Source of the DNA: Polyangiaceae bacterium
GTDB taxonomy: Bacteria > Myxococcota_A > Polyangia > Polyangiales > Polyangiaceae
Reading direction: 5' to 3'
Length of the DNA stretch: 36,725 nt
NCBI GenBank assembly: GCA_009781005.1
Contig: WQYX01000039.1
Location: 1 to 36,725, forward strand
Made by a program: the position numbers and the translations under genes. Of the stretch, positions 1 to 36,725 are shown piece after piece. A model generated the notes under the pieces. The model was not told the origin of the DNA and did not search any database. It saw only the letters and a list, made by a program, of their open reading frames with translations. Within the stretch, counting starts at the first letter, position 1. Each line of letters opens with the position of its first letter.

Positions 1-51
1 GCAGCGGACTGAAAATCCGCGTGTCGACAGTTCGATTCTGTCCCTGGGCAC
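1..51 (+). repeat. attL: attL, 51-bp attachment core
   Basis: This sequence is repeated exactly at 36675-36725. It covers the last two bases of the D-stem, the anticodon arm, variable region, T-arm and 3' acceptor strand of a tRNA-Phe gene. The 5' part of the tRNA must lie just left of the window. Integration at the 3' end of a tRNA with the phage supplying an identical replacement end is standard for tyrosine integrases. Confidence 0.95.
1..51 (+). tRNA. 3' part of tRNA-Phe (GAA), 5' part outside the window
   Basis: The anticodon arm GCGGA-CTGAAAA-TCCGC gives anticodon GAA in a 7-base loop. It is followed by variable bases GTGTC, T-arm GACAG-TTCGATT-CTGTC, acceptor strand CCTGGGC, discriminator A and CC. 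The next base is T, so the terminal CCA is not fully encoded. The expected 5' acceptor strand, GCCCAGG, should lie upstream of base 1. Because the phage supplies this 3' end, the host tRNA stays functional after integration. Confidence 0.9.
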
Positions 52-24003: not shown

Positions 24004-24411
24004 CTATTGGCGTACGTAACTCACGTTGTAGGTACCAACACAACTTTCGCCGTCGCGAAGAGTGACGGTGAGAGTAACGGTACCTTCGATTACTGAACCG
24101 TCATCCGTAACCTGCGTCGTCACGCCGGTGCCCTTCGTCGTCGACCCATCAGGGTTCGTACATGTGAGCGTGCGTGCGTCCTGGCATTGATCGGCACTCC
24201 ACGCATCAGAAGTAACGACGCATCCAGGAGTCACGTCACTGGCTATCAGCGACGAAGGCACATCTCCGCACGTGCCAGAGAGCGTCGTAGCCGTCATTAA
24301 ATAGGTGCCCTGACGATCTGTCGGGGAACACAAGATAGGCGACGATCCATAACCTGAACTGCATGACACAAGAGAAACGAAGAGGACTGCGAGCATGAGG
24401 GAGGTCTTCAT
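24004..24411 (-). CDS. Secreted lipoprotein, possible lysogenic-conversion gene
   Basis: This 135-aa protein has a clear lipoprotein signal: basic start (MKTSLM), hydrophobic core (LAVLFVSL) and lipobox VSC with Cys17. The mature part is Ser/Thr-rich, beta-type and has six further Cys that may form disulfides outside the inner membrane (STTKGTGVTTQVTDDGSVIEGTVTLTVTLRDG). I chose the internal ATG that starts the signal peptide. It is flanked by the origin region and TerS. Phage lipoproteins often change the host surface or block superinfection, but no family was recognised, so the role is inferred. Expression in the lysogen is not shown by the sequence. Confidence 0.7.
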   Translation of the reverse strand: MKTSLMLAVLFVSLVSCSSGYGSSPILCSPTDRQGTYLMTATTLSGTCGDVPSSLIASDVTPGCVVTSDAWSADQCQDARTLTCTNPDGSTTKGTGVTTQVTDDGSVIEGTVTLTVTLRDGESCVGTYNVSYVRQ

Positions 24412-24434: not shown

Positions 24435-24724
24435 TGCAGGTGATCACCAATTTTCATCACCGGCATAAAATTATCATTGATTTCAATAACTTAGGCCCAA
24501 ATGCAGGTGATCGCAGGTGATGTTGAGGGCAACCTTCGTGCGCGCCTGTGCGCGTACGCACGCGCGATCATTATATGCATTTTTCTTATTTTCACTTTTC
24601 CCTCCTTAGCATTGAAAACATCACCTGCATCACCTGCAGAATTGGTTATTTGCCTATAATATAGATGGATCATATGCAGGTGATGGTGCAGGTGATGCGC
24701 AGGTGATGCTGTGGATCACCTGCA
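24435..24724. repeat. Iteron array, candidate replication origin
   Basis: Nine copies of a 10-base unit, TGCAGGTGAT (seven copies) or CGCAGGTGAT (two copies), lie in this stretch. Forward copies: 24435, 24502, 24512 (tandem), 24675, 24687, 24698. Reverse copies: 24620, 24629, 24715 (all first bases). Between them are A/T-rich segments (24449-24492 and 24560-24600). Clustered short direct and inverted repeats with an A/T-rich part are the layout of an initiator-bound origin. The last four copies fall inside the 3' end of the adjacent initiator/helicase gene. The 242 bases between that gene and the lipoprotein gene hold no protein gene that I can support. Confidence 0.75.
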
Positions 24725-26342
24725 CGACAACCCAAACGGCAGTGCGAGTGCGGTTGAGTTTTTGTTCGAGCTTGCATCCTACGACAATACGACCACGTAA
24801 TCTTCGAAGCGCGTAACCCAAGTCCTTCGAACTTGGCGCGCGTCCGGGTTGAACACGCGCGAGCTGCTCGATGGCCTCGCGCAGGTCGTCGTAACCGTCC
24901 GGAGGACCATCTGCGGGCGGACGCCCGCGGGGCCATAGGACGTCGATGGCCGTCTTGACCGAAATTCCCTCTGTACCCCCGAGCCGGCGCCAGTGCGTGT
25001 AGAGCGCCGCGATGGCCGAGCCGGTCAGGTCGCTCTCTGGCGTCGTTCGGCACGCCGACACGTCAGCGCCGCCGGCCCAGACGATGGCGCTCGTCACGAC
25101 CCGCGACCAGTCCTCGTAGCTGCCCCACTCGGCAGCCCCGCATGCTGGGCGACCAACAAGGGCGTGAGCTCGTAGGAGCGTGAGCGCCGCGCCGACGTAC
25201 TTCGGCCGCTCCACGAGAGCGTGCTCGGCGAGTCGGGGGAAGCGCCATCCTCCGCGCGTCTCGGGCGTCTCGGTCTGCGGCTCGATGCGCGAGAGGAGCG
25301 CGCGCCTCGTCGTGTCACCCTTGATTTGCACGTTGTTTCCACTCACGAGCATAACGGCGCGCCAAGGTAGATCGCGGCTCTGCGTCAGGCCGAGCACGCG
25401 CAGGCTCACCGCGTCGCTCGTGAGGTACTTGTCGATCGGAGCGCAACCAAAAGGTTGCGTTAGGTTGTCCCAGTGCACGATCGCGCGACCATCGAGCGCA
25501 TAGCTCGCGAGCATCTTCTCTGCCTCTTCTTCCTGCCTCGGGTACGTGCAGAGTGCAGCTATTCGACCTGTCGTAACGAGTGAGATCACCGCCGTCTGCA
25601 GCGACTTGCCCGAGCCCTGCACCGACGCGTCAAAGATGAACGCAGGGACGGGGCCGCGGATGGCAGGACGGCCGATGACTGAGAGGATGGCGGCGATGGG
25701 GACATCGCGCGAGGCCGGAGAAACGTAGGGGAAATCGACGAAGAGATCGCGCAAGAGTGCAAGCGCTTCGCGCGCGTCCTTCTCTGACGGCGCCGTCGAC
25801 AGCGGCACGTCAATGCGTGGACAATGCACGTACTTGGTTTGTGTGTCGTAGCCAGCTACGGTGTGCACAGATCCGTCCGGCCGGAGGATGGGCGTCTCAC
25901 TCACGCCGAGCAGAGGGCGAATGCCGGGATACTTCGCTCGAGCGCTTACCGCCTGCACGATCGCGTCGTTTGGAACGACGGCGCGGTAGCCTATTTTCTG
26001 ACCGCCCACGTCCTTCTCTTTGTCGTCCTTCGCGATCCACAGCGCCACGCGCGTGAGCCGCTCGCGCAGCGTTGCGAGCGGCAGAGCGCGAAGCCTCGAC
26101 ACCTCGCCGAGCTCGGTTTCGAGATCGAGCACCTCGGTGAGCTGCCCATCGCGCTGGTAGAGCGACGGCAGCGCCGAGAGCGCGTCGATCGCGTCGTCGA
26201 CCACGCGGTGTAGATCGACACCGACGCGAATCGTTGCTCGGATGCCGTCCTCGCCCGGCAGGTACGCGGACGGTCGCGCCGACTTATAGCCCGACGCACG
26301 CAGTACGTCGTTGAGCACGTCGCTCTGTCCGCTGTCAGCCAT
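24654..26342 (-). CDS. Replication initiator/SF3-like helicase
   Basis: This 562-aa protein has a P-loop ATPase core: Walker A QGSGKS (242-247), a Walker-B-like hydrophobic stretch ending HWDN (290-293), a sensor-type VSGNN (333-337) and TTRRALLSR (344-352) with possible arginine fingers. The layout, with a SF3-like helicase domain preceded by a 200-residue N-terminal part, suits primase/helicase-type replication proteins encoded by phages and plasmids. No intact primase active-site motif was found. The gene contains and borders the iteron array, which points to a role as replication initiator and loader/helicase. The last 23 residues are encoded across four iterons. ATG with GAAGG upstream. 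Confidence 0.7.
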   Translation of the reverse strand: MADSGQSDVLNDVLRASGYKSARPSAYLPGEDGIRATIRVGVDLHRVVDDAIDALSALPSLYQRDGQLTEVLDLETELGEVSRLRALPLATLRERLTRVALWIAKDDKEKDVGGQKIGYRAVVPNDAIVQAVSARAKYPGIRPLLGVSETPILRPDGSVHTVAGYDTQTKYVHCPRIDVPLSTAPSEKDAREALALLRDLFVDFPYVSPASRDVPIAAILSVIGRPAIRGPVPAFIFDASVQGSGKSLQTAVISLVTTGRIAALCTYPRQEEEAEKMLASYALDGRAIVHWDNLTQPFGCAPIDKYLTSDAVSLRVLGLTQSRDLPWRAVMLVSGNNVQIKGDTTRRALLSRIEPQTETPETRGGWRFPRLAEHALVERPKYVGAALTLLRAHALVGRPACGAAEWGSYEDWSRVVTSAIVWAGGADVSACRTTPESDLTGSAIAALYTHWRRLGGTEGISVKTAIDVLWPRGRPPADGPPDGYDDLREAIEQLARVQPGRAPSSKDLGYALRRLRGRIVVGCKLEQKLNRTRTAVWVVVQVIHSITCASPAPSPAYDPSIL

Positions 26343-26625
26343 CGACCTTCACCGCTTCACCCTGCTGGCGCATCCACTCGATAGCTCGAGCGGGAAGGGG
26401 CGATGACGCGTCTTTGGCGAGTTTGCGAATAATATATATTCCTTGGCGTATATCTACTTTGTAGTTGATATATCCAATTCTCAGGGACGACTTGGCTTGT
26501 TCGAGCTGCCCCGAAAGAGCTATTACTCGATCAAGGAGCGTCTCGAGCTCGCGAGTTTCCTCTTCGATCTTGCTGCATAATGCAAGTATCGCAGCCTTCG
26601 CAATCTGCTCGTCTGTCGGTGTCAT
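26335..26625 (-). CDS. Small coiled-coil protein
   Basis: This 96-aa protein is strongly helical (ILALCSKIEEETRELETLLDRVIALSGQLEQAKSSL), with heptad-like spacing indicating a coiled coil over about residues 15-50. A shorter beta/helix part follows (YINYKVDIRQGIYIIRKLAKDA). It overlaps the VRR-NUC gene at its start (ATGA) and the initiator gene by 8 bases at its end. No catalytic motif is seen. Its location between a nuclease and the initiator suggests a replication accessory role, but no family was recognised. Confidence 0.6.
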   Translation of the reverse strand: MTPTDEQIAKAAILALCSKIEEETRELETLLDRVIALSGQLEQAKSSLRIGYINYKVDIRQGIYIIRKLAKDASSPLPARAIEWMRQQGEAVKVDG

Positions 26626-26960
26626 CTTGCCCTATCCACCGCTGCCAACGCCTCTTCGACGGTCGTCACGACGCACGCGACGCCACCAGAACGCTCGATG
26701 ATGCCGAGCCAAATCTGTTGCACTCGAGTGACTGTGTGCAACTTGTCTGGCCTCTTAACTTCGAGCGCCAAGAATCGTCCGTGCGGAGGAACGACGCATA
26801 TTAGGTCGGCAACGCCGATGCCTAATCCGGTGTGTAATTGCCTGTTGTCGACATGGTGTTTCCAGCAAGGAATGCATGCTTTGCCGAGCGCAATCCGAAT
26901 GTCCGTCTCAATGGCTCTTTCGGTACGCCTCTTTTCGGGTTTCCGGCGTCGGCCACTCAC
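26622..26960 (-). CDS. VRR-NUC nuclease, Holliday-junction-resolvase type
   Basis: This 112-aa protein has all the landmarks of the VRR-NUC domain (PD-(D/E)xK superfamily): an N-terminal basic helix with E18, HHVDNRQLHTGLGIGVADLI with D52, LEVKR with E67 and K69, and QQ (81-82) in the following helix. Such enzymes cleave branched DNA, especially Holliday junctions. It follows the SF2 helicase gene, which it overlaps by 53 bases, a context seen in phage replication modules. I chose the GTG at 26960; an earlier ATG would read far into the helicase gene in another frame. Confidence 0.8.
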   Translation of the reverse strand: MSGRRRKPEKRRTERAIETDIRIALGKACIPCWKHHVDNRQLHTGLGIGVADLICVVPPHGRFLALEVKRPDKLHTVTRVQQIWLGIIERSGGVACVVTTVEEALAAVDRAR

Positions 26961-28239
26961 CGTATGTGGCCTTGTACCGGTGCGACGCCGACCCGAGCTT
27001 GTAGCCTTTGATTCGTGCATCATGTATCCACCTCGCGAGGGACCAAATACGTTGTTCGTTCGTCTCGGTGCGCTTGCGGACGAAGCGATCGATCGGGAGA
27101 CCGAGCACGCGCGGAGCACGCTTACGGAGCTCGCCCTCGTAGCCACACGTGCATGGCGGCGCGTCTACGACGCCACCGCAAACAGGGCAGAATCGCACGT
27201 CCTGCGCGTCACGACGGCGGAGCGCTTTTCCTTCGAGCGACCAGCACCAGTCGTCCGTCGGCTCGCCTAGATCGTGCGTGCAGCCCGTCAGGTCGACGAC
27301 GATGCAATCGCTCTTACCGTCGCACGGCCGAAGTCCTCGACCTATCGCCTGCAGGAGAGGGACGGCAGAAGCGAAGCGGCGCGCGAGCACGATGGCGCTC
27401 GTACGCGGTGAGTCCCAGCCTTCAAGGAGGATTGAGTGATTGCAGAGTACATTGATGTCTCCCAGGTCGTACTGCGCGAGAACTTCAGCGCGCTCCCTCG
27501 ACGACATTCCGCTGTGAATTGCGGCGGCTCGACATCGTTCTCCGGTGCGCGTTGAGAGCTCGATCGCGAGTGTTTGCGCTTCCTCGACAGAGGAGCAGAA
27601 GACGATTGTGCTGCGCGGAATTCGCCTCCCATACGCAAAGCCGCCGAACACTCCACGATCGCCGAACACATCGATCGGATCTTGCGCGAGCTCGCCGGGA
27701 GCAAGCGCATGGTCGGGCCGGTAGATCTGTCCGTACGGCACGAGCCACCCCTCATCGATGGCTTGACGCGTCGTGAGCGGTTCGAACAAGGTGTCGAACA
27801 TCTGTTCGAGCCCTCGCCCGTCCCCACGTGCAGGTGTCGCGTCGAGGCCTAGCACCTTCGCCGTGGGGTATGCCTCACGCAGCTTGCTCCACTCGTCAGA
27901 GAGGTAGTGTCGCGCCTCGTCGAGGACAATAACGTCTGGCCTCCACTTTCCGCCGGACGAACTAGCGTCAATTAGATAATCGCACGCTTCAAGCAACTGA
28001 ATCGTCGCGACGCGCCAACGCTCGATGTCGCGACGCCTTACCCACTGATTAGCAATCTCTCTTCGGGGGGCAACAACGAGAACGTTCTTGTCTCCGTCTG
28101 CCATCCGGAAAGCGACGTGAATTCCCACCGTCGTCTTGCCCGTGCCAGTGGGCATGACGACAAGCACGCCTTTGGCGCCTCCGCGGAAGGCGGCGAGCGT
28201 CTCGCCGACGGCCGTCTGCTGGTATGGTCGGAGGGTCAC
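26908..28239 (-). CDS. Superfamily 2 helicase with C-terminal zinc ribbon
   Basis: This 443-aa protein has helicase motif I PTGTGKT (30-36), motif II DEARH (107-111), motif III-like DATPAR (133-138), motif IV-like STIVFCSS (210-217), motif V region LLEGWDSP (271-278) and motif VI QAIGRGLRP (297-305). This places it in SF2, DEAD/DEAH-like with RecA-like folds. A four-Cys ribbon (351, 354, 363, 365) and a basic C-terminus follow and probably contact DNA. Its likely role is unwinding or branch migration during phage replication or recombination, together with the VRR-NUC enzyme encoded immediately after. ATG overlaps the upstream stop (ATGA). Confidence 0.85.
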   Translation of the reverse strand: MTLRPYQQTAVGETLAAFRGGAKGVLVVMPTGTGKTTVGIHVAFRMADGDKNVLVVAPRREIANQWVRRRDIERWRVATIQLLEACDYLIDASSSGGKWRPDVIVLDEARHYLSDEWSKLREAYPTAKVLGLDATPARGDGRGLEQMFDTLFEPLTTRQAIDEGWLVPYGQIYRPDHALAPGELAQDPIDVFGDRGVFGGFAYGRRIPRSTIVFCSSVEEAQTLAIELSTRTGERCRAAAIHSGMSSRERAEVLAQYDLGDINVLCNHSILLEGWDSPRTSAIVLARRFASAVPLLQAIGRGLRPCDGKSDCIVVDLTGCTHDLGEPTDDWCWSLEGKALRRRDAQDVRFCPVCGGVVDAPPCTCGYEGELRKRAPRVLGLPIDRFVRKRTETNEQRIWSLARWIHDARIKGYKLGSASHRYKATYGEWPTPETRKEAYRKSH

Positions 28240-29046: not shown

Positions 29047-29156
29047 GGCTGCCTCCGATCGGACTGGACGAACCACGCGTAGAGCACGGCGGCCGCGATG
29101 CCGATGACGAGCCAGTCTGGCAACGCTTCGAGCGCATCGAAGTAGGCGCGGATCAT
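29043..29156 (-). CDS. Tiny single-span membrane protein (37 aa)
   Basis: Translation from ATG at 29156 gives 37 aa with hydrophobic span WLVIGIAAAVLYAWFV and a basic end (QSDRRQP). The start has a strong AGGAGG at 7 bases. It overlaps the Cro-like gene stop (ATGA) and the next gene start (GTGA), so it fills the gap exactly. Tiny membrane proteins at early lytic positions can regulate host membrane functions, but this one matches no family I know. Reading a longer frame in another phase across this region gives only an Arg-rich sequence. Confidence 0.6.
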   Translation of the reverse strand: MIRAYFDALEALPDWLVIGIAAAVLYAWFVQSDRRQP

Positions 29157-29392
29157 GACGCAACCTCCTGGTTGCTAGGTCGAGGCCTGCGCGGGAGGTC
29201 GGCGCGCACTTCGCCTTTGCTCCACCGCTCGATCTGTTCGCGCGTTTTGTGTCGTGGGTAGCTGCCCTGGCACCAGTAGTGGATCGAAGAGAAGGAGCGT
29301 CGCAGTGCGAAGGCCGCCTGCAATTTCGCGCCCTGATTTGGGTAGCGACGCAACAAATACGCGCTGAAAACTTCCGACCAGGTCATGCACAT
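29153..29392 (-). CDS. Cro-like regulator (first lytic gene)
   Basis: This 79-aa protein (77 aa if the second ATG at 29386 is used) has a helix-turn-helix in the LQAAFALRRSFSSIHYWCQGSYP segment, followed by TREQIERWSKGEVRADLP, the usual end of Cro/YdaS-like proteins (REQIE...GxV...DL). It is divergent from the CI-like gene and sits at the head of the minus-strand lytic operon. By analogy it would bind the same operators and favour lytic development. There is no ribosome site before either ATG, and the inferred promoter is very close, so the message may be leaderless. Both points are inference. Confidence 0.7.
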   Translation of the reverse strand: MCMTWSEVFSAYLLRRYPNQGAKLQAAFALRRSFSSIHYWCQGSYPRHKTREQIERWSKGEVRADLPRRPRPSNQEVAS

Positions 29393-29436: not shown

Positions 29437-29467
29437 CCGAAGGCTACGGGTGGATACGGTGCCTTTG

Positions 29468-29953
29468 ATGGCGAAGGAGATCGAGCCGGTGAGTGAATTT
29501 CTTCGGCACCTCATCGCGCAGTGGGAAGCCGAAGGAAAAATGATCAAGGACTTAGCCGCTGAAGCGGGCGTCGCTCAGTCCTTGCCTTCGCAGCTCAAAG
29601 CACGAACAACCAACGCCTCTTTCTACTCCGCAACCAAACTGGCGAAGCCGTTCGGGTTCCCCGATCTCGCGGCGCTCGTATCGGCTGCTCTAGCATGGGA
29701 CGGAACAACCGGCGTCTCGGCGCTACATCTCGCGACGTCCTCACGCACTGAAGCGGTCCGTATTGCCGAGCGGTACGGAGCAACCACGGAACAAATCTCG
29801 CGCGCGCTGCAACGCTATCCAGAAGCTGATTTCGCGCGCAAGGACACTCTTTGGTGGCTTGCGCGCATTCAGGACGAACGCGCACTGGATGCAGAGCGGG
29901 AGGCGGTAACACCCGCTGCCACGACTTACCGATCGCGGCGTAAGTCAGGGTAG
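29468..29953 (+). CDS. CI-like repressor, HTH protein without cleavage domain
   Basis: This 161-aa protein has a helix-turn-helix near the N-terminus (KMIKDLAAEAGVAQSLPSQLKARTTNASFYSATKLAKPFGF, about 24-64). A helical domain follows that contains no visible S24/LexA-type Ser-Lys protease residues, so induction may not involve self-cleavage. It is divergent from the Cro-like gene with a 75-base operator between and is followed by the early promoter, the standard place of a lysogeny repressor. It should bind AATCAGAAT sites. I chose ATG at 29468; a GTG seven codons earlier is possible. A basic tail closes the protein. Confidence 0.7.
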   Translation: MAKEIEPVSEFLRHLIAQWEAEGKMIKDLAAEAGVAQSLPSQLKARTTNASFYSATKLAKPFGFPDLAALVSAALAWDGTTGVSALHLATSSRTEAVRIAERYGATTEQISRALQRYPEADFARKDTLWWLARIQDERALDAEREAVTPAATTYRSRRKSG

Positions 29954-31361: not shown

Positions 31362-31552
31362 TCCGCCGGCTCGAAACCAACGAGAGAAATTCTCGCCTCT
31401 ATGCAGGATGGTGCATGTCCCTCGCGCAGGCTGGGACGAGTGTTCCGCGCATCGACGTCGACATGTTGATTCGCGTCTTCGAGCTCGGCGAGACGTGGGC
31501 GTGTTGCGCCCAGAAATGGGCGAAAAGGAAAGGTAGGAAGTCATGGGACTAG
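31358..31552 (+). CDS. Small hypothetical protein
   Basis: This 64-aa protein (MIRRLETNERNSRLYAGWCM...) is helical and ends in a basic stretch (CCAQKWAKRKGRKSWD). A short CC pair sits near the C-terminus. The ATG overlaps the preceding stop (ATGA) and the end overlaps the nuclease gene by ten bases. No known motif. It may be a partner of the nuclease, which is inference from coupling. Confidence 0.5.
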   Translation: MIRRLETNERNSRLYAGWCMSLAQAGTSVPRIDVDMLIRVFELGETWACCAQKWAKRKGRKSWD

Positions 31553-32580
31553 AGAGAAAAAAACTAAACGTACTCACGCATTCCAGCGTCGCGTGCTTTC
31601 GGCGCTGTCCGCGCGAGTACAAGTATCGCTACGTGATGCTGCGCCGAGTGCGTGCAGGAGACGAGGCGCCGGCGTTGAAGTTCGGCACTCTCATGCACGC
31701 GGCGATGGCGGAATGGTGGAAGCATCGGATAGGTGGTGCTGCGGGATGCGCTCTGGACATGGGCCTGCGCCCTCTCTGCGGACAGGGCGATCCGTACGAG
31801 CGCGCCAAGGCACAGGAGCTCCTCATTGCGTATGACGCGTATTGGGACGATTCGCCGCTGGGCACTCACCTGCACGTTATTGGTGTGCGAGTCGAGCAGG
31901 AATTCGCGGCGCCTATTCTATCCCCGCTCGGCAAGCCTTCTCTGCGTTATGTTTACGCCGGCAAGGTCGACGCGGTCGTGACCGCTCTTGTGCAACCCGA
32001 CCGACTCACGCAACTAGTCGTCGAGCATAAGACGACGAGTGAAGACCCGAGCCCAGAGACCCATTACTGGGAGATGGCGGCCGTGATGGATCCACAGGTC
32101 ACGGGATATCTCGACGCGTACCCCGGAGCCGAAATGCTCTACGATGTCATCCGCAAGGTAGATCTGCGGCCGGGGAAGGCCACCCCGGAAGACCGGCGCA
32201 AGTACCGCAAGGATGGCGGTCTCATCGCCTCGCAGCGTGCAGAAGATGAGACGCCAGAAGAGTATCAGGTGAGGGTGCGCGAGGAGATTAAGGGGCACCC
32301 CGAGAAGTATTTCCATCGAGGTAGGATCGTGAGGCTGTCTCGCGACTCGGCACAGCATCGAGCCGACCTATGGCTAACCTGTCTTCTCATCGATGACGCG
32401 TTGGAGGTGGATGGTTTCGTTCGCCACCCCCACTCATGTGTTCGTTATAGCAGGCTCTGCGAGTATTTCGACGTCTGCTCGGGACAGACATCAATCGACA
32501 GCGATGACCGATTCCGCACCGCGGATAGGCCGCACGAAGAGTTGAGTGCGGAGATAAGCGAGAAAGGAGAAGGCGCATGA
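31543..32580 (+). CDS. Cas4/AddB-like PD-(D/E)xK nuclease with Fe-S-type Cys
   Basis: This 345-aa protein has the RecB-like nuclease order: N-terminal HSSVACFRRCPREYKYRYV, FGTLMHAAMAEWW with the conserved His52, GKVDAVV with D143, VVEHKT with E161 and K163, then a C-terminal Cys set (C299, C306, C312) that with an N-terminal Cys (C18 or C22) can bind a 4Fe-4S cluster, as in AddB and Cas4. It would trim DNA ends for recombination. No helicase domain is attached. ATG with AGGA eight bases upstream. The next AAA ATPase and SSB-like genes suggest a recombination module. A defence function is not indicated by neighbours. Confidence 0.8.
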   Translation: MGLERKKLNVLTHSSVACFRRCPREYKYRYVMLRRVRAGDEAPALKFGTLMHAAMAEWWKHRIGGAAGCALDMGLRPLCGQGDPYERAKAQELLIAYDAYWDDSPLGTHLHVIGVRVEQEFAAPILSPLGKPSLRYVYAGKVDAVVTALVQPDRLTQLVVEHKTTSEDPSPETHYWEMAAVMDPQVTGYLDAYPGAEMLYDVIRKVDLRPGKATPEDRRKYRKDGGLIASQRAEDETPEEYQVRVREEIKGHPEKYFHRGRIVRLSRDSAQHRADLWLTCLLIDDALEVDGFVRHPHSCVRYSRLCEYFDVCSGQTSIDSDDRFRTADRPHEELSAEISEKGEGA

Positions 32581-32801
32581 AAGGCGAAGAATATCCCTCC
32601 GACGCCGAGATGTCGAAGGTAGAGGAATTGTTGAGCGGGACGGATGATCGCATAGGGTATATTCCTAGCGAATCTCCGGCCTACGACGAGCTTCACGCGG
32701 CAAGGCATGGATTGCAGTCCGCGCGCAAACATGCGCGACATGCGCGCAACATGATGTTTGCAGCGCGAGGAAGGCTGGGGGCGCGCTATGAAAACGCGTA
32801 A
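32577..32801 (+). CDS. Small helical protein
   Basis: This 74-aa protein (MKGEEYPSDAEMSKVEELLSG...) has an acidic N-terminus and a basic, His/Arg-rich helical C-terminus (DELHAARHGLQSARKHARHARNMMFAARGRL). ATG overlaps the nuclease stop (ATGA), and its end overlaps the ATPase start by 14 bases. No family was recognised. The basic helix could bind DNA. Confidence 0.5.
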   Translation: MKGEEYPSDAEMSKVEELLSGTDDRIGYIPSESPAYDELHAARHGLQSARKHARHARNMMFAARGRLGARYENA

Positions 32802-33768
32802 CACCTATGCGCCGGCCGAACGTCAGCGCATGCTGATATGCGGACCGCCCGGTGTCGGCAAGAGCACGCTCGCCGCGAGCTCGCCGAACCCCATCTTTTT
32901 GGCGGCGGAGAATGGGTTGCAGTACCTGCACGCGACAGCCTACGATCCTACCCCGCGGACGTACCACGACGTGCTCCGCGCGCTGCGAGAGATTGCGGAG
33001 GATTCCACGTTCGAGACCTTTGTTGTCGACACGCTCAATTGGGTGGAGCCCATAGTGTGGGCGCACGTCGGAACCCTCGGCAAAAAGATGGCCGTAGAAG
33101 ACTACGGCTACCAGGATGGCTACCGGATGGCGGCTCGAGAATTCCGGCCAATTCTCAAAGAGCTCGAGGCCATCAACGAGCGAAAGAACATCATCCTTCT
33201 CGCGCACGTACGAGTGCGGACGCGCAAGAATCCAGAGGGTGATGATTACGAGGCCATGGCCGTAAGCGTGCACGACTTGATTGGCGATCTCATCACGCAA
33301 TGGGTCAACGTGGTCGGCTACTTGACCACTGACGCAACAGTGGGCAAAGCCAAGGGAGACCGCGTCGCGAAAGCCACCGAGAGCGAGACGCGCATCTTGA
33401 GGATGCGTTCGCATCCTGCATACCCATCTAAGAGCAGACCTGATGCTCCGGAACGGATCGAGATTCCAAAGGATGGCGGATGGGATGCGATGATGCGGGC
33501 GCTCGGGAGCGAACTTCCAAAAGCGCCTCAGGGATCCACGTGTGAGGGTCCCGAGACGGAAAATGGGAGGATATATCGCGAGGCTCTCGAGATGCTCGCG
33601 GAACATCAGCGGGTAGCGAATCCAGAGTACAGGGGGTTTGTTGACCGGATGGCTCGATTTTTGGAGGCCCCTCAGAGCACGCTCTCTATTGAGCGGCTTC
33701 TTTCGGCAAAAGAGGCGTTATTCGACCCGGCCGCGTGGCTGGCAAAAGAAAGGACGGCACGACCATGA
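32788..33768 (+). CDS. AAA-type ATPase (AAA_24-like recombination protein)
   Basis: This 326-aa protein has Walker A GPPGVGKS (19-26) and a Walker-B-like FVVDTLNW (78-85) with D81. The region FVVDTLNWVEPIVWAHV and the later NIILLAHVRVRTRKNPEGDDYEAMAVSVHDLIGDLI are typical of phage RecA-like ATPases called AAA_24 (Pfam PF13479). These proteins probably assist annealing, strand exchange or repair in phage recombination. The start ATG at 32788 follows GGGGGCGCGCT and overlaps the prior gene. With the Cas4/AddB-like nuclease upstream and SSB-like protein downstream it forms a recombination cassette. Confidence 0.8.
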   Translation: MKTRNTYAPAERQRMLICGPPGVGKSTLAASSPNPIFLAAENGLQYLHATAYDPTPRTYHDVLRALREIAEDSTFETFVVDTLNWVEPIVWAHVGTLGKKMAVEDYGYQDGYRMAAREFRPILKELEAINERKNIILLAHVRVRTRKNPEGDDYEAMAVSVHDLIGDLITQWVNVVGYLTTDATVGKAKGDRVAKATESETRILRMRSHPAYPSKSRPDAPERIEIPKDGGWDAMMRALGSELPKAPQGSTCEGPETENGRIYREALEMLAEHQRVANPEYRGFVDRMARFLEAPQSTLSIERLLSAKEALFDPAAWLAKERTARP

Positions 33769-35835: not shown

Positions 35836-36686
35836 GCGAGCGCGAGACGGCCGGAAAGAAGCCGGGCACGCTCAGCATGTACGGACAGAAAGGGAGACAC
35901 CTCGTGCGCCTCCTTGGCGCCGATACGCTGCTCTCGGACATCGGCGCGCAGCAGATCGACCAGTTCGCTGCCGAGCGGCTGAAGGAGGGTGCCGCCAGAA
36001 CGACGGTCCACAAAGAGCTCGTCACGCTGAGGGGCGCGTTGAAACTCGCGCGCCGCTACCGGCAGTATCCCTACGCGCTCGACGAGGTGATGCCCGAGTT
36101 TGCGATCGAGTATGTGCCGAAGGAGCGCGCGCTGCCGCTGCACGAGATCGCGCTGTTGCTCGGGACACTGCCGGCCAAGCGCTCGGCGCTGGTCGGCTTG
36201 CTCATTGCGACGGCGGCCACGTACCCGAGCGAGATCGATCGGCTGCGCAAGACCGACATTGACCTCGTCGCGGGCTACGTCAGGCTGCGAGGGACAAAGC
36301 GCACGACGCGAGATCGCCGCGTGCCCATCGTGGACTTCGCACGCCCATGGGTTGAGCGCGCGGTGGCTTATATGCCGTTCGAGAGGTGGACCAACGTGAG
36401 GCGAGATCTGCATGTCGCCTGCAAGCGGGTCGAGATCGAAGCGTGCTCGCCGAACGACTTACGCCGCACGATGTTGACCCTCCTGCGAGCTCACGGCGTG
36501 GAGCCGTCGTTGCTCGCGGTGTTCGCTGGCCATGCCGACTCCCGGATGGTCGAGAGGGTCTACGGACGCCTCGCGCCCGAGCAGCTCGCGAAACTGCTCG
36601 AGCAAAGACTCGCGTTCACAACCAGTGCACAGAGAGCAAAAAAGATGGTAAAAACATCGAGAAAACGAACGAATGCAGCGGACTGA
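35628..36686 (+). CDS. int: Tyrosine integrase, catalytic set atypical
   Basis: This 352-aa protein begins with an arm-binding-like domain (LYLRGRIWWCLVTNPK...AARKRW), then a core-binding helical domain (about 58-150) and the catalytic domain. There K224, R279 (NDLRRT), H302 (GHADSRM) and nucleophile Y312 are recognisable. The first Arg is replaced by Y199 in ATYPSEI and the usual His before R279 is N276. It should carry out site-specific recombination at tRNA-Phe. I chose GTG at 35628 because GGAGGG lies upstream and the domain starts here. The last codons and stop are inside attR. Confidence 0.85.
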   Translation: MRDTLYLRGRIWWCLVTNPKGGRSLRRSTRCHDRVAARKRWLELERAVITQADRPPDSPTLAFVLDWRLSERETAGKKPGTLSMYGQKGRHLVRLLGADTLLSDIGAQQIDQFAAERLKEGAARTTVHKELVTLRGALKLARRYRQYPYALDEVMPEFAIEYVPKERALPLHEIALLLGTLPAKRSALVGLLIATAATYPSEIDRLRKTDIDLVAGYVRLRGTKRTTRDRRVPIVDFARPWVERAVAYMPFERWTNVRRDLHVACKRVEIEACSPNDLRRTMLTLLRAHGVEPSLLAVFAGHADSRMVERVYGRLAPEQLAKLLEQRLAFTTSAQRAKKMVKTSRKRTNAAD

Positions 36687-36725
36687 AAATCCGCGTGTCG
36701 ACAGTTCGATTCTGTCCCTGGGCAC
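36675..36725 (+). repeat. attR: attR, 51-bp attachment core
   Basis: This is an exact copy of bases 1-51. It overlaps the end of the integrase gene, giving the final codons GCA GCG GAC and the stop TGA. The 5' part of the tRNA is replaced by phage DNA here, so this copy is not a functional tRNA. Chromosomal DNA should continue at the next base. Confidence 0.95.

Follow-up and report, generated by a model that had tools for sequence, protein, structure and literature searches.

The 290 bp at positions 24435-24724 of a temperate myxobacterial phage are very probably the phage's replication origin, or else a cis element like the crr of P4, built on the plan of the Rep-ori modules of P4, PICI and SaPI elements. 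In the best-supported reading of the sequence, this origin would be recognized by the adjacent helicase/initiator. The agreement with P4 and the PICIs covers the protein fold, the order of gene and iterons, and the form of the array. A known kind of origin would thus be found in a new place, namely a complete phage in which the array overlaps the rep gene.

The DNA analysed, referred to here as the window, is a stretch of 36,725 nucleotides that makes up a whole contig of the host assembly and also has an IMG/VR record. It represents a podovirus-like temperate phage that sits as a prophage in the genome of a myxobacterium, and the hosts of related loci are Myxococcota. The phage encodes a terminase, a portal, a putative major head protein and a putative internal virion protein, as well as an integrase. 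A satellite would be a small genome devoid of terminase, portal and virion genes; because the window has these genes, it is a full phage, and only its replicon type is common to P4 and the PICIs. The ends of the window (1-51 and 36675-36725) form a 51-bp direct repeat identical to the 3' portion of a tRNA, probably tRNA-Phe as read from the anticodon loop. Another contig of the same genome (C131, positions 1-123) runs from 77 bp of the phage right end through the 51-bp core into host DNA, arguing that the phage is integrated and therefore temperate. The phage contig ends in the core at both sides, which suggests that circular phage copies were also sequenced. An AAA_24 ATPase gene (32758-33768, + strand) lies beside a PD-(D/E)XK exonuclease gene (31543-32580, + strand), and the two are likely a phage recombination module. 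Near 29.4 kb, a divergent pair of small ORFs (29153-29392, - strand, and 29447-29953, + strand), neither with a family match, looks by position and sequence like a candidate lysogeny switch. The GC skew provides no mark of an origin, as its turning point is at ~28.5-29 kb, where genes switch strand, and not at 24.5 kb.

The iteron array and the initiator gene

A preliminary description of this DNA reported nine repeats, direct and inverted, within 290 bp, and all nine exact copies of YGCAGGTGAT were found again on both strands at 24435-24724. On the + strand they occupy 24435-24444, 24502-24511 (TGCAGGTGAT), 24512-24521 (CGCAGGTGAT), 24675-24684 (TGCAGGTGAT), 24687-24696 (TGCAGGTGAT) and 24698-24707 (CGCAGGTGAT); the copies at 24502 and 24512 are the inverted set of the canonical module (see below). 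Those on the - strand are at 24620-24629 and 24629-24638, which are head-to-tail with a 9-bp step, and at 24715-24724 (TGCAGGTGAT). A degenerate tenth iteron with one mismatch (TGCCGGTGAT, 24456-24465, - strand) can be added to the array. It forms a palindromic pair with the copy at 24435-24444, 24 bp upstream of the start codon of the next gene, and the pair is a possible operator. The iteron is better taken as the 9-bp GCAGGTGAT, with steps of 9-12 bp. With positions counted in the direction of the helicase gene, starting where the conserved domain ends, one unit at 5 is followed by three in the opposite orientation at 21, 32 and 44, the stop codon at 74, two in the first orientation at 91 and 100, two opposite at 207 and 217, the mismatched unit in the first orientation at 264, and one opposite at 284.

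This clustering is specific to the locus. No exact YGCAGGTGAT occurs outside the array in the 36.7-kb phage, and allowing one mismatch yields only four outside matches in the window, scattered at 2244, 6774, 27344 and 31865. When the region is shuffled, any 8-mer reaches at most 2-3 copies, versus nine in the real array. The A/T-rich tracts of the preliminary description turn out to include the A/T-richest 100 bp of the whole 59%-GC phage (24567-24666, 68%) and its A/T-richest 240 bp (24449-24688, 57%). The 100-bp segment is a candidate melting region, and the spacer also contains a 20-bp alternating purine/pyrimidine run (24547-24566). Oppositely oriented iteron sets thus lie on either side of an A/T-rich region immediately 3' of rep, which is the layout of the P4/PICI type.

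The helicase gene itself (24654-26342, - strand) encodes a 562-residue protein assigned from profiles, fold and alignment as a D5/SF3-type initiator helicase (Rep), with a conserved part that ends at about residue 541. No Pfam model matches the protein, and a phmmer search against solved structures gave no match. Its best profile match is phrog_29234 (E 5e-66), a family of phage proteins whose function is not known, and a weaker match is to phrog_19930 DNA polymerase/primase (E 4e-16). The AlphaFold2 model (pLDDT 83) is closest among solved folds to the SaPI5 Rep primase-helicase (7ola; Z 13.3, 5.5 A over 315 residues); other matches are to PriRep1, to vaccinia D5 (Z 12.6) and mpox E5, and to NrS-1 (Z 11.0). 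Residues G243, G245, D292, N336, N337, R346 and R347 are invariant across 18 relatives and K246 is nearly so, and these include the Walker and Arg residues. The model and alignment together place the protein among the D5/SF3-type AAA+ initiator helicases, with SaPI5 Rep as its predicted nearest neighbour. The C-terminal part, taken as residues 424-545, is modelled at pLDDT > 90 as helices with a wing formed by a beta-hairpin. Its best matches to solved structures are assorted winged helices at only Z 5-6, and with these modest scores the conserved C-terminal domain appears winged-helix-like to about residue 541. No primase domain was detected in the 562-residue protein or in the neighbouring ORFs scanned; several relatives of the helicase have Toprim/DnaG or Prim-Pol N-termini.

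As the preliminary description held, the 3' end of this gene contains four iterons (24675-24724), and they fall in codon phases 2, 2, 0 and 1, arguing that they are not a peptide repeat. The claim that the last 23 residues are encoded by iterons was also right and can be refined, in that the iterons span residues ~540-556 with a few further residues before the stop. From alignments, pLDDT and codon phases, this C-terminal tail (residues 540-562; 24654-24724, - strand) is outside the conserved domain, and its last ~20 residues amount to iteron DNA read in three phases. Residues 543-562 have pLDDT < 50, being disordered in the model, and are unconserved in alignments. Because the tail is iteron-encoded, disordered and unconserved, the constraint there presumably acts on the DNA rather than on the protein.

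The helicase's operon also includes a VRR-NUC nuclease gene (26622-27146, - strand) and a gene for an SF2 DNA helicase of phrog_16 (26908-28239, - strand), both assigned by family match. The next gene downstream of the helicase (24004-24411, - strand) has no family match; a lipoprotein-like signal sequence can be read from its ORF, and iterons of the array fall in its leader.

Arrays beside the genes of related helicases

Among 96 related genomes, 18 have a homologue of the helicase, a count that includes the genome of the window itself; further homologues were found at 17 loci on genome contigs and 2 on viral contigs, some of which are the same loci. A 15-sequence alignment was too divergent for the locus search, which worked with six closer sequences. 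Word clusters were present at helicase gene ends in a first set of loci (A), and the word-cluster rule written on that set held again in a set fetched later (B; P 0.002), where three clusters were near the gene end (6% of the length) versus two far from it. Reading of the 3' ends showed a typical module of 2-3 degenerate head-to-tail 9-bp units, a spacer of 30-100 bp and 2-3 inverted units; because these units are few and degenerate, the word-cluster rule undercounts. A fixed module rule detected a module at the helicase gene 3' end in 13 of 28 divergent relatives and only 3 modules elsewhere in 337 kb (binomial P about 1e-16, a generous figure since the rule was written after some of the loci had been seen). 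The internal control, in which the same rule is applied to the rest of each locus, is unaffected by that prior viewing. Six more loci were added by reading of the sequences (L032, L037, L047, L049, L058 and L067). The window meets the 9-bp module rule only at relaxed thresholds and P4 fails the strict rule, so the rule describes the majority form only.

As in the window, the array can extend into the gene. It is inside the coding tail at L033, L036, L039, L047, L052, L053 and L063, where it is read as, for example, GDAGHAGD, GTRGTRGT or HPPHHPH, and it begins just past the stop codon at L034, L037, L043, L057, L061 and L068. The words used include GCAGGTGAT, GCGGGTGAT, GCGGGGAAT, TGGTGACAC, GGGGAACGT and GGTTAGGAT, among others, and are mostly lineage-specific. 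A Mantel test gave a weak correlation between iteron word and C-terminal domain similarity (r 0.23, P 0.04); the word tracks this domain no better than the ATPase part, and the effect is inseparable from general relatedness.

The L043 helicase is ~31% identical to that of the window in the aligned part, and the two loci agree in the order of their sets and each have 47-bp gaps; the final palindromic pair of L043 is likewise shortly before the next start codon. The L043 contig (C93 of genome G021, which belongs to the same family) also has three ~202-bp repeats, each with the L043 word, ~4.6-5.1 kb past the stop codon of the helicase gene, and by analogy with P4 these look as if they were a second ori/crr-type site. 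In the Methanosarcinales virus vir525 (L106, BK063673.1), TGCGGGTAT occurs eight times and its 8-bp core nine times, 33-360 bp after the helicase homologue. A phrog_16 DNA helicase is encoded upstream of the homologue in vir525, as in the window, and the order of the replication operon is to that extent common to a phage of bacteria and a virus of archaea. L048 (G041:C187) has a dense array of another kind ~0.5-0.8 kb after the helicase gene, made up of eleven direct and inverted GATCTGCCG/CGGCAGATC words.

The spacers of the modules are A/T-richer than their own loci (combined P 1e-7, a value to be read with the frequent A/T-richness of intergenic DNA in mind), as would be expected of melting regions. 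Alternating purine/pyrimidine runs of 17-25 bp, otherwise rare in those loci, are present in 5 of 18 modules (window, L047, L052, L057 and L068) and so are not a defining feature. Some homologues lack an array at the end of the gene. L031, the relative nearest in sequence, is one of them, and has a module 1.7 kb downstream; L038, L040, L042, L044, L045, L064 and L065 have no array, and the homologues in phiCbK, RcXuper, V10, C1, phiAsp2, TPWB-08 and Rctr197k have no gene-end array.

The viral contigs beyond the window that contain the exact word pair (L003, L004, L006 and L007) have the word in tandem in what look like coding repeats and were rejected, as were the GCRGGTGAT doublets found in 10 of 96 related genomes, which are mostly coding DAG repeats. 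At L096, L093 and L098, in GC-rich myxobacterial genomes, coding repeats of the Asp-Ala-Gly type or similar mimic the tandem iteron word. Such repeats are a trap for searches with the GCRGGTGAT pattern.

Known systems and alternative readings

Lambda also has iterons that lie within an initiator gene, namely O. A lambda-type O/ori, in which an O-like initiator works with a separate DnaB-type helicase loader, was rejected, because the window protein is itself a helicase and its iterons are at and past the 3' end, whereas O is not a helicase and its iterons are mid-gene and bound by the O N-terminal domain. An iteron plasmid of the Rep_3/RepA kind, with 17-22 bp iterons at a period of ~22 bp, was rejected as well, since there is no Rep_3 Pfam match and the steps are 9-12 bp.

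Closer parallels come from mobile elements. Every PICI origin has an A/T-rich region with a set of iterons on either side, and rep together with ori is enough for a plasmid to replicate (PMC6092414). SaPI Rep recognizes an origin directly downstream of its own gene via its C-terminal domain (PMC7581432). The window shares with these elements the location of the candidate ori directly downstream of rep and the two iteron sets around an A/T-rich region (PMC6092414, PMC7581432), in addition to a helicase whose best solved fold match is SaPI5 Rep (7ola). It differs in being a virion-encoding temperate Myxococcota phage with another iteron word, and, relative to the pri-rep-ori order, in that no adjacent primase was found among the ORFs scanned and that the iterons are partly inside rep. 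In SCCmec, the D5-family helicase Cch2 binds and unwinds short repeats that immediately follow its own operon, again via the C-terminal domain (PMC7581432); these are only three AAGTG iterons at a putative origin, in an element of another type than the window. The Sulfolobus plasmid pRN1 has its origin within 166 bp downstream of ORF904, the gene for a primase-helicase with a C-terminal winged helix (PMC4234260), but this origin is a 100-nt stem-loop without iterons. The helicase fold, the arrays at relatives' gene ends and the order common to P4, PICI and SCCmec elements all support the likely origin proposed in the preliminary description.

The comparison with P4 leads to the strongest alternative. 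In the P4 sequence (NC_001609), the initiator gene alpha is directly followed by the crr, which consists of clusters of an 8-bp iteron (GGTGAACA) that occurs in either orientation with steps of 9-18 bp, and the P4 word has a GGTGA core like that of the window. P4 is a satellite without virion genes, whereas the window is a complete phage; alpha has a primase domain, which is not detectable in the window helicase; and a terminator separates crr from alpha, whereas the window array overlaps the helicase gene. P4 also needs a second iteron site, ori1, 4.7 kb away. Because the P4 iterons beside alpha are crr and ori1 is elsewhere, the window site may likewise be a cis replication enhancer for a start point that lies at another place in the phage. 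The second array of its own word ~4.6 kb away in L043 would fit this possibility, but the window has no second array and PICI origins at the equivalent place suffice together with rep, so that an enhancer is the less probable reading, though one to be taken seriously.

It is considerably less probable that the array is a set of operators for a transcription regulator, such as a phage repressor or late activator, acting on the lipoprotein or late genes. Iterons within the leader of the gene that follows, among them the palindromic pair just before its start codon, would fit such a regulator. However, four copies are inside a coding region, the two sets flank the A/T-richest segment of the phage, and no iterons are present at the candidate lysogeny switch or any other promoter region. 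A scan of the array region revealed no sigma-70-type promoter, and the arrays of relatives trail the helicase gene with many different words, often wholly inside the gene. A partition (parS-like) or DNA-packaging site is very unlikely: clustered inverted sites can act as centromeres, but no ParA/ParB match was found among the ORFs scanned, the phage is integrative, and the terminase genes are 4 kb off and without repeats. Least credible of all is a peptide or simple-sequence repeat, with tandem GCAGGTGAT arising from the Asp-Ala-Gly codons common in GC-rich myxobacterial proteins (as in the largely coding doublets of related genomes, such as DAGDAG in L096 and L098), which is refuted by strand and phase, the window copies being in both orientations and three codon phases and half of them non-coding.

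Proposed mechanism and significance

If the array is the origin, the C-terminal winged-helix-like domain of the 562-residue helicase would bind the GCAGGTGAT iterons, and the two oppositely oriented iteron clusters would load two helicase rings. These rings could then melt the A/T-rich spacer at 24567-24666, and replication would proceed with a primase and polymerase from elsewhere, whether phage or host enzymes. The array can overlap the 3' end of rep because the conserved domain ends at ~541 and the tail tolerates any sequence. More speculatively, the palindromic pair at 24435-24465 might allow the initiator to regulate transcription of the next gene, a form of autoregulation suggested by the same pair in L043.

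Loci with the helicase and an array occur in assemblies of Myxococcota, Planctomycetota, Acidobacteria and Alphaproteobacteria, and also in a methanogen virus. The case is about evenly balanced that this helicase family, for which there is no Pfam model, and its 3' array constitute one widespread replicon type, with 9-bp head-to-tail iterons shorter than a helical turn, a word that changes between lineages together with the C-terminal domain, and DNA that is often read as a disposable protein tail. If so, about 20 natural initiator-iteron pairs would be available for decoding recognition, and the relatives with differing words would offer natural variation for how initiator helicases read origins. 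The module is small enough for trial as a myxobacterial plasmid replicon. For the phage itself, the analysis assigns a probable origin and initiator to a temperate phage of myxobacteria that has no Pfam family for its replication gene, and it would carry the P4/PICI-style replicon beyond satellites, to complete phages and probably to an archaeal virus.
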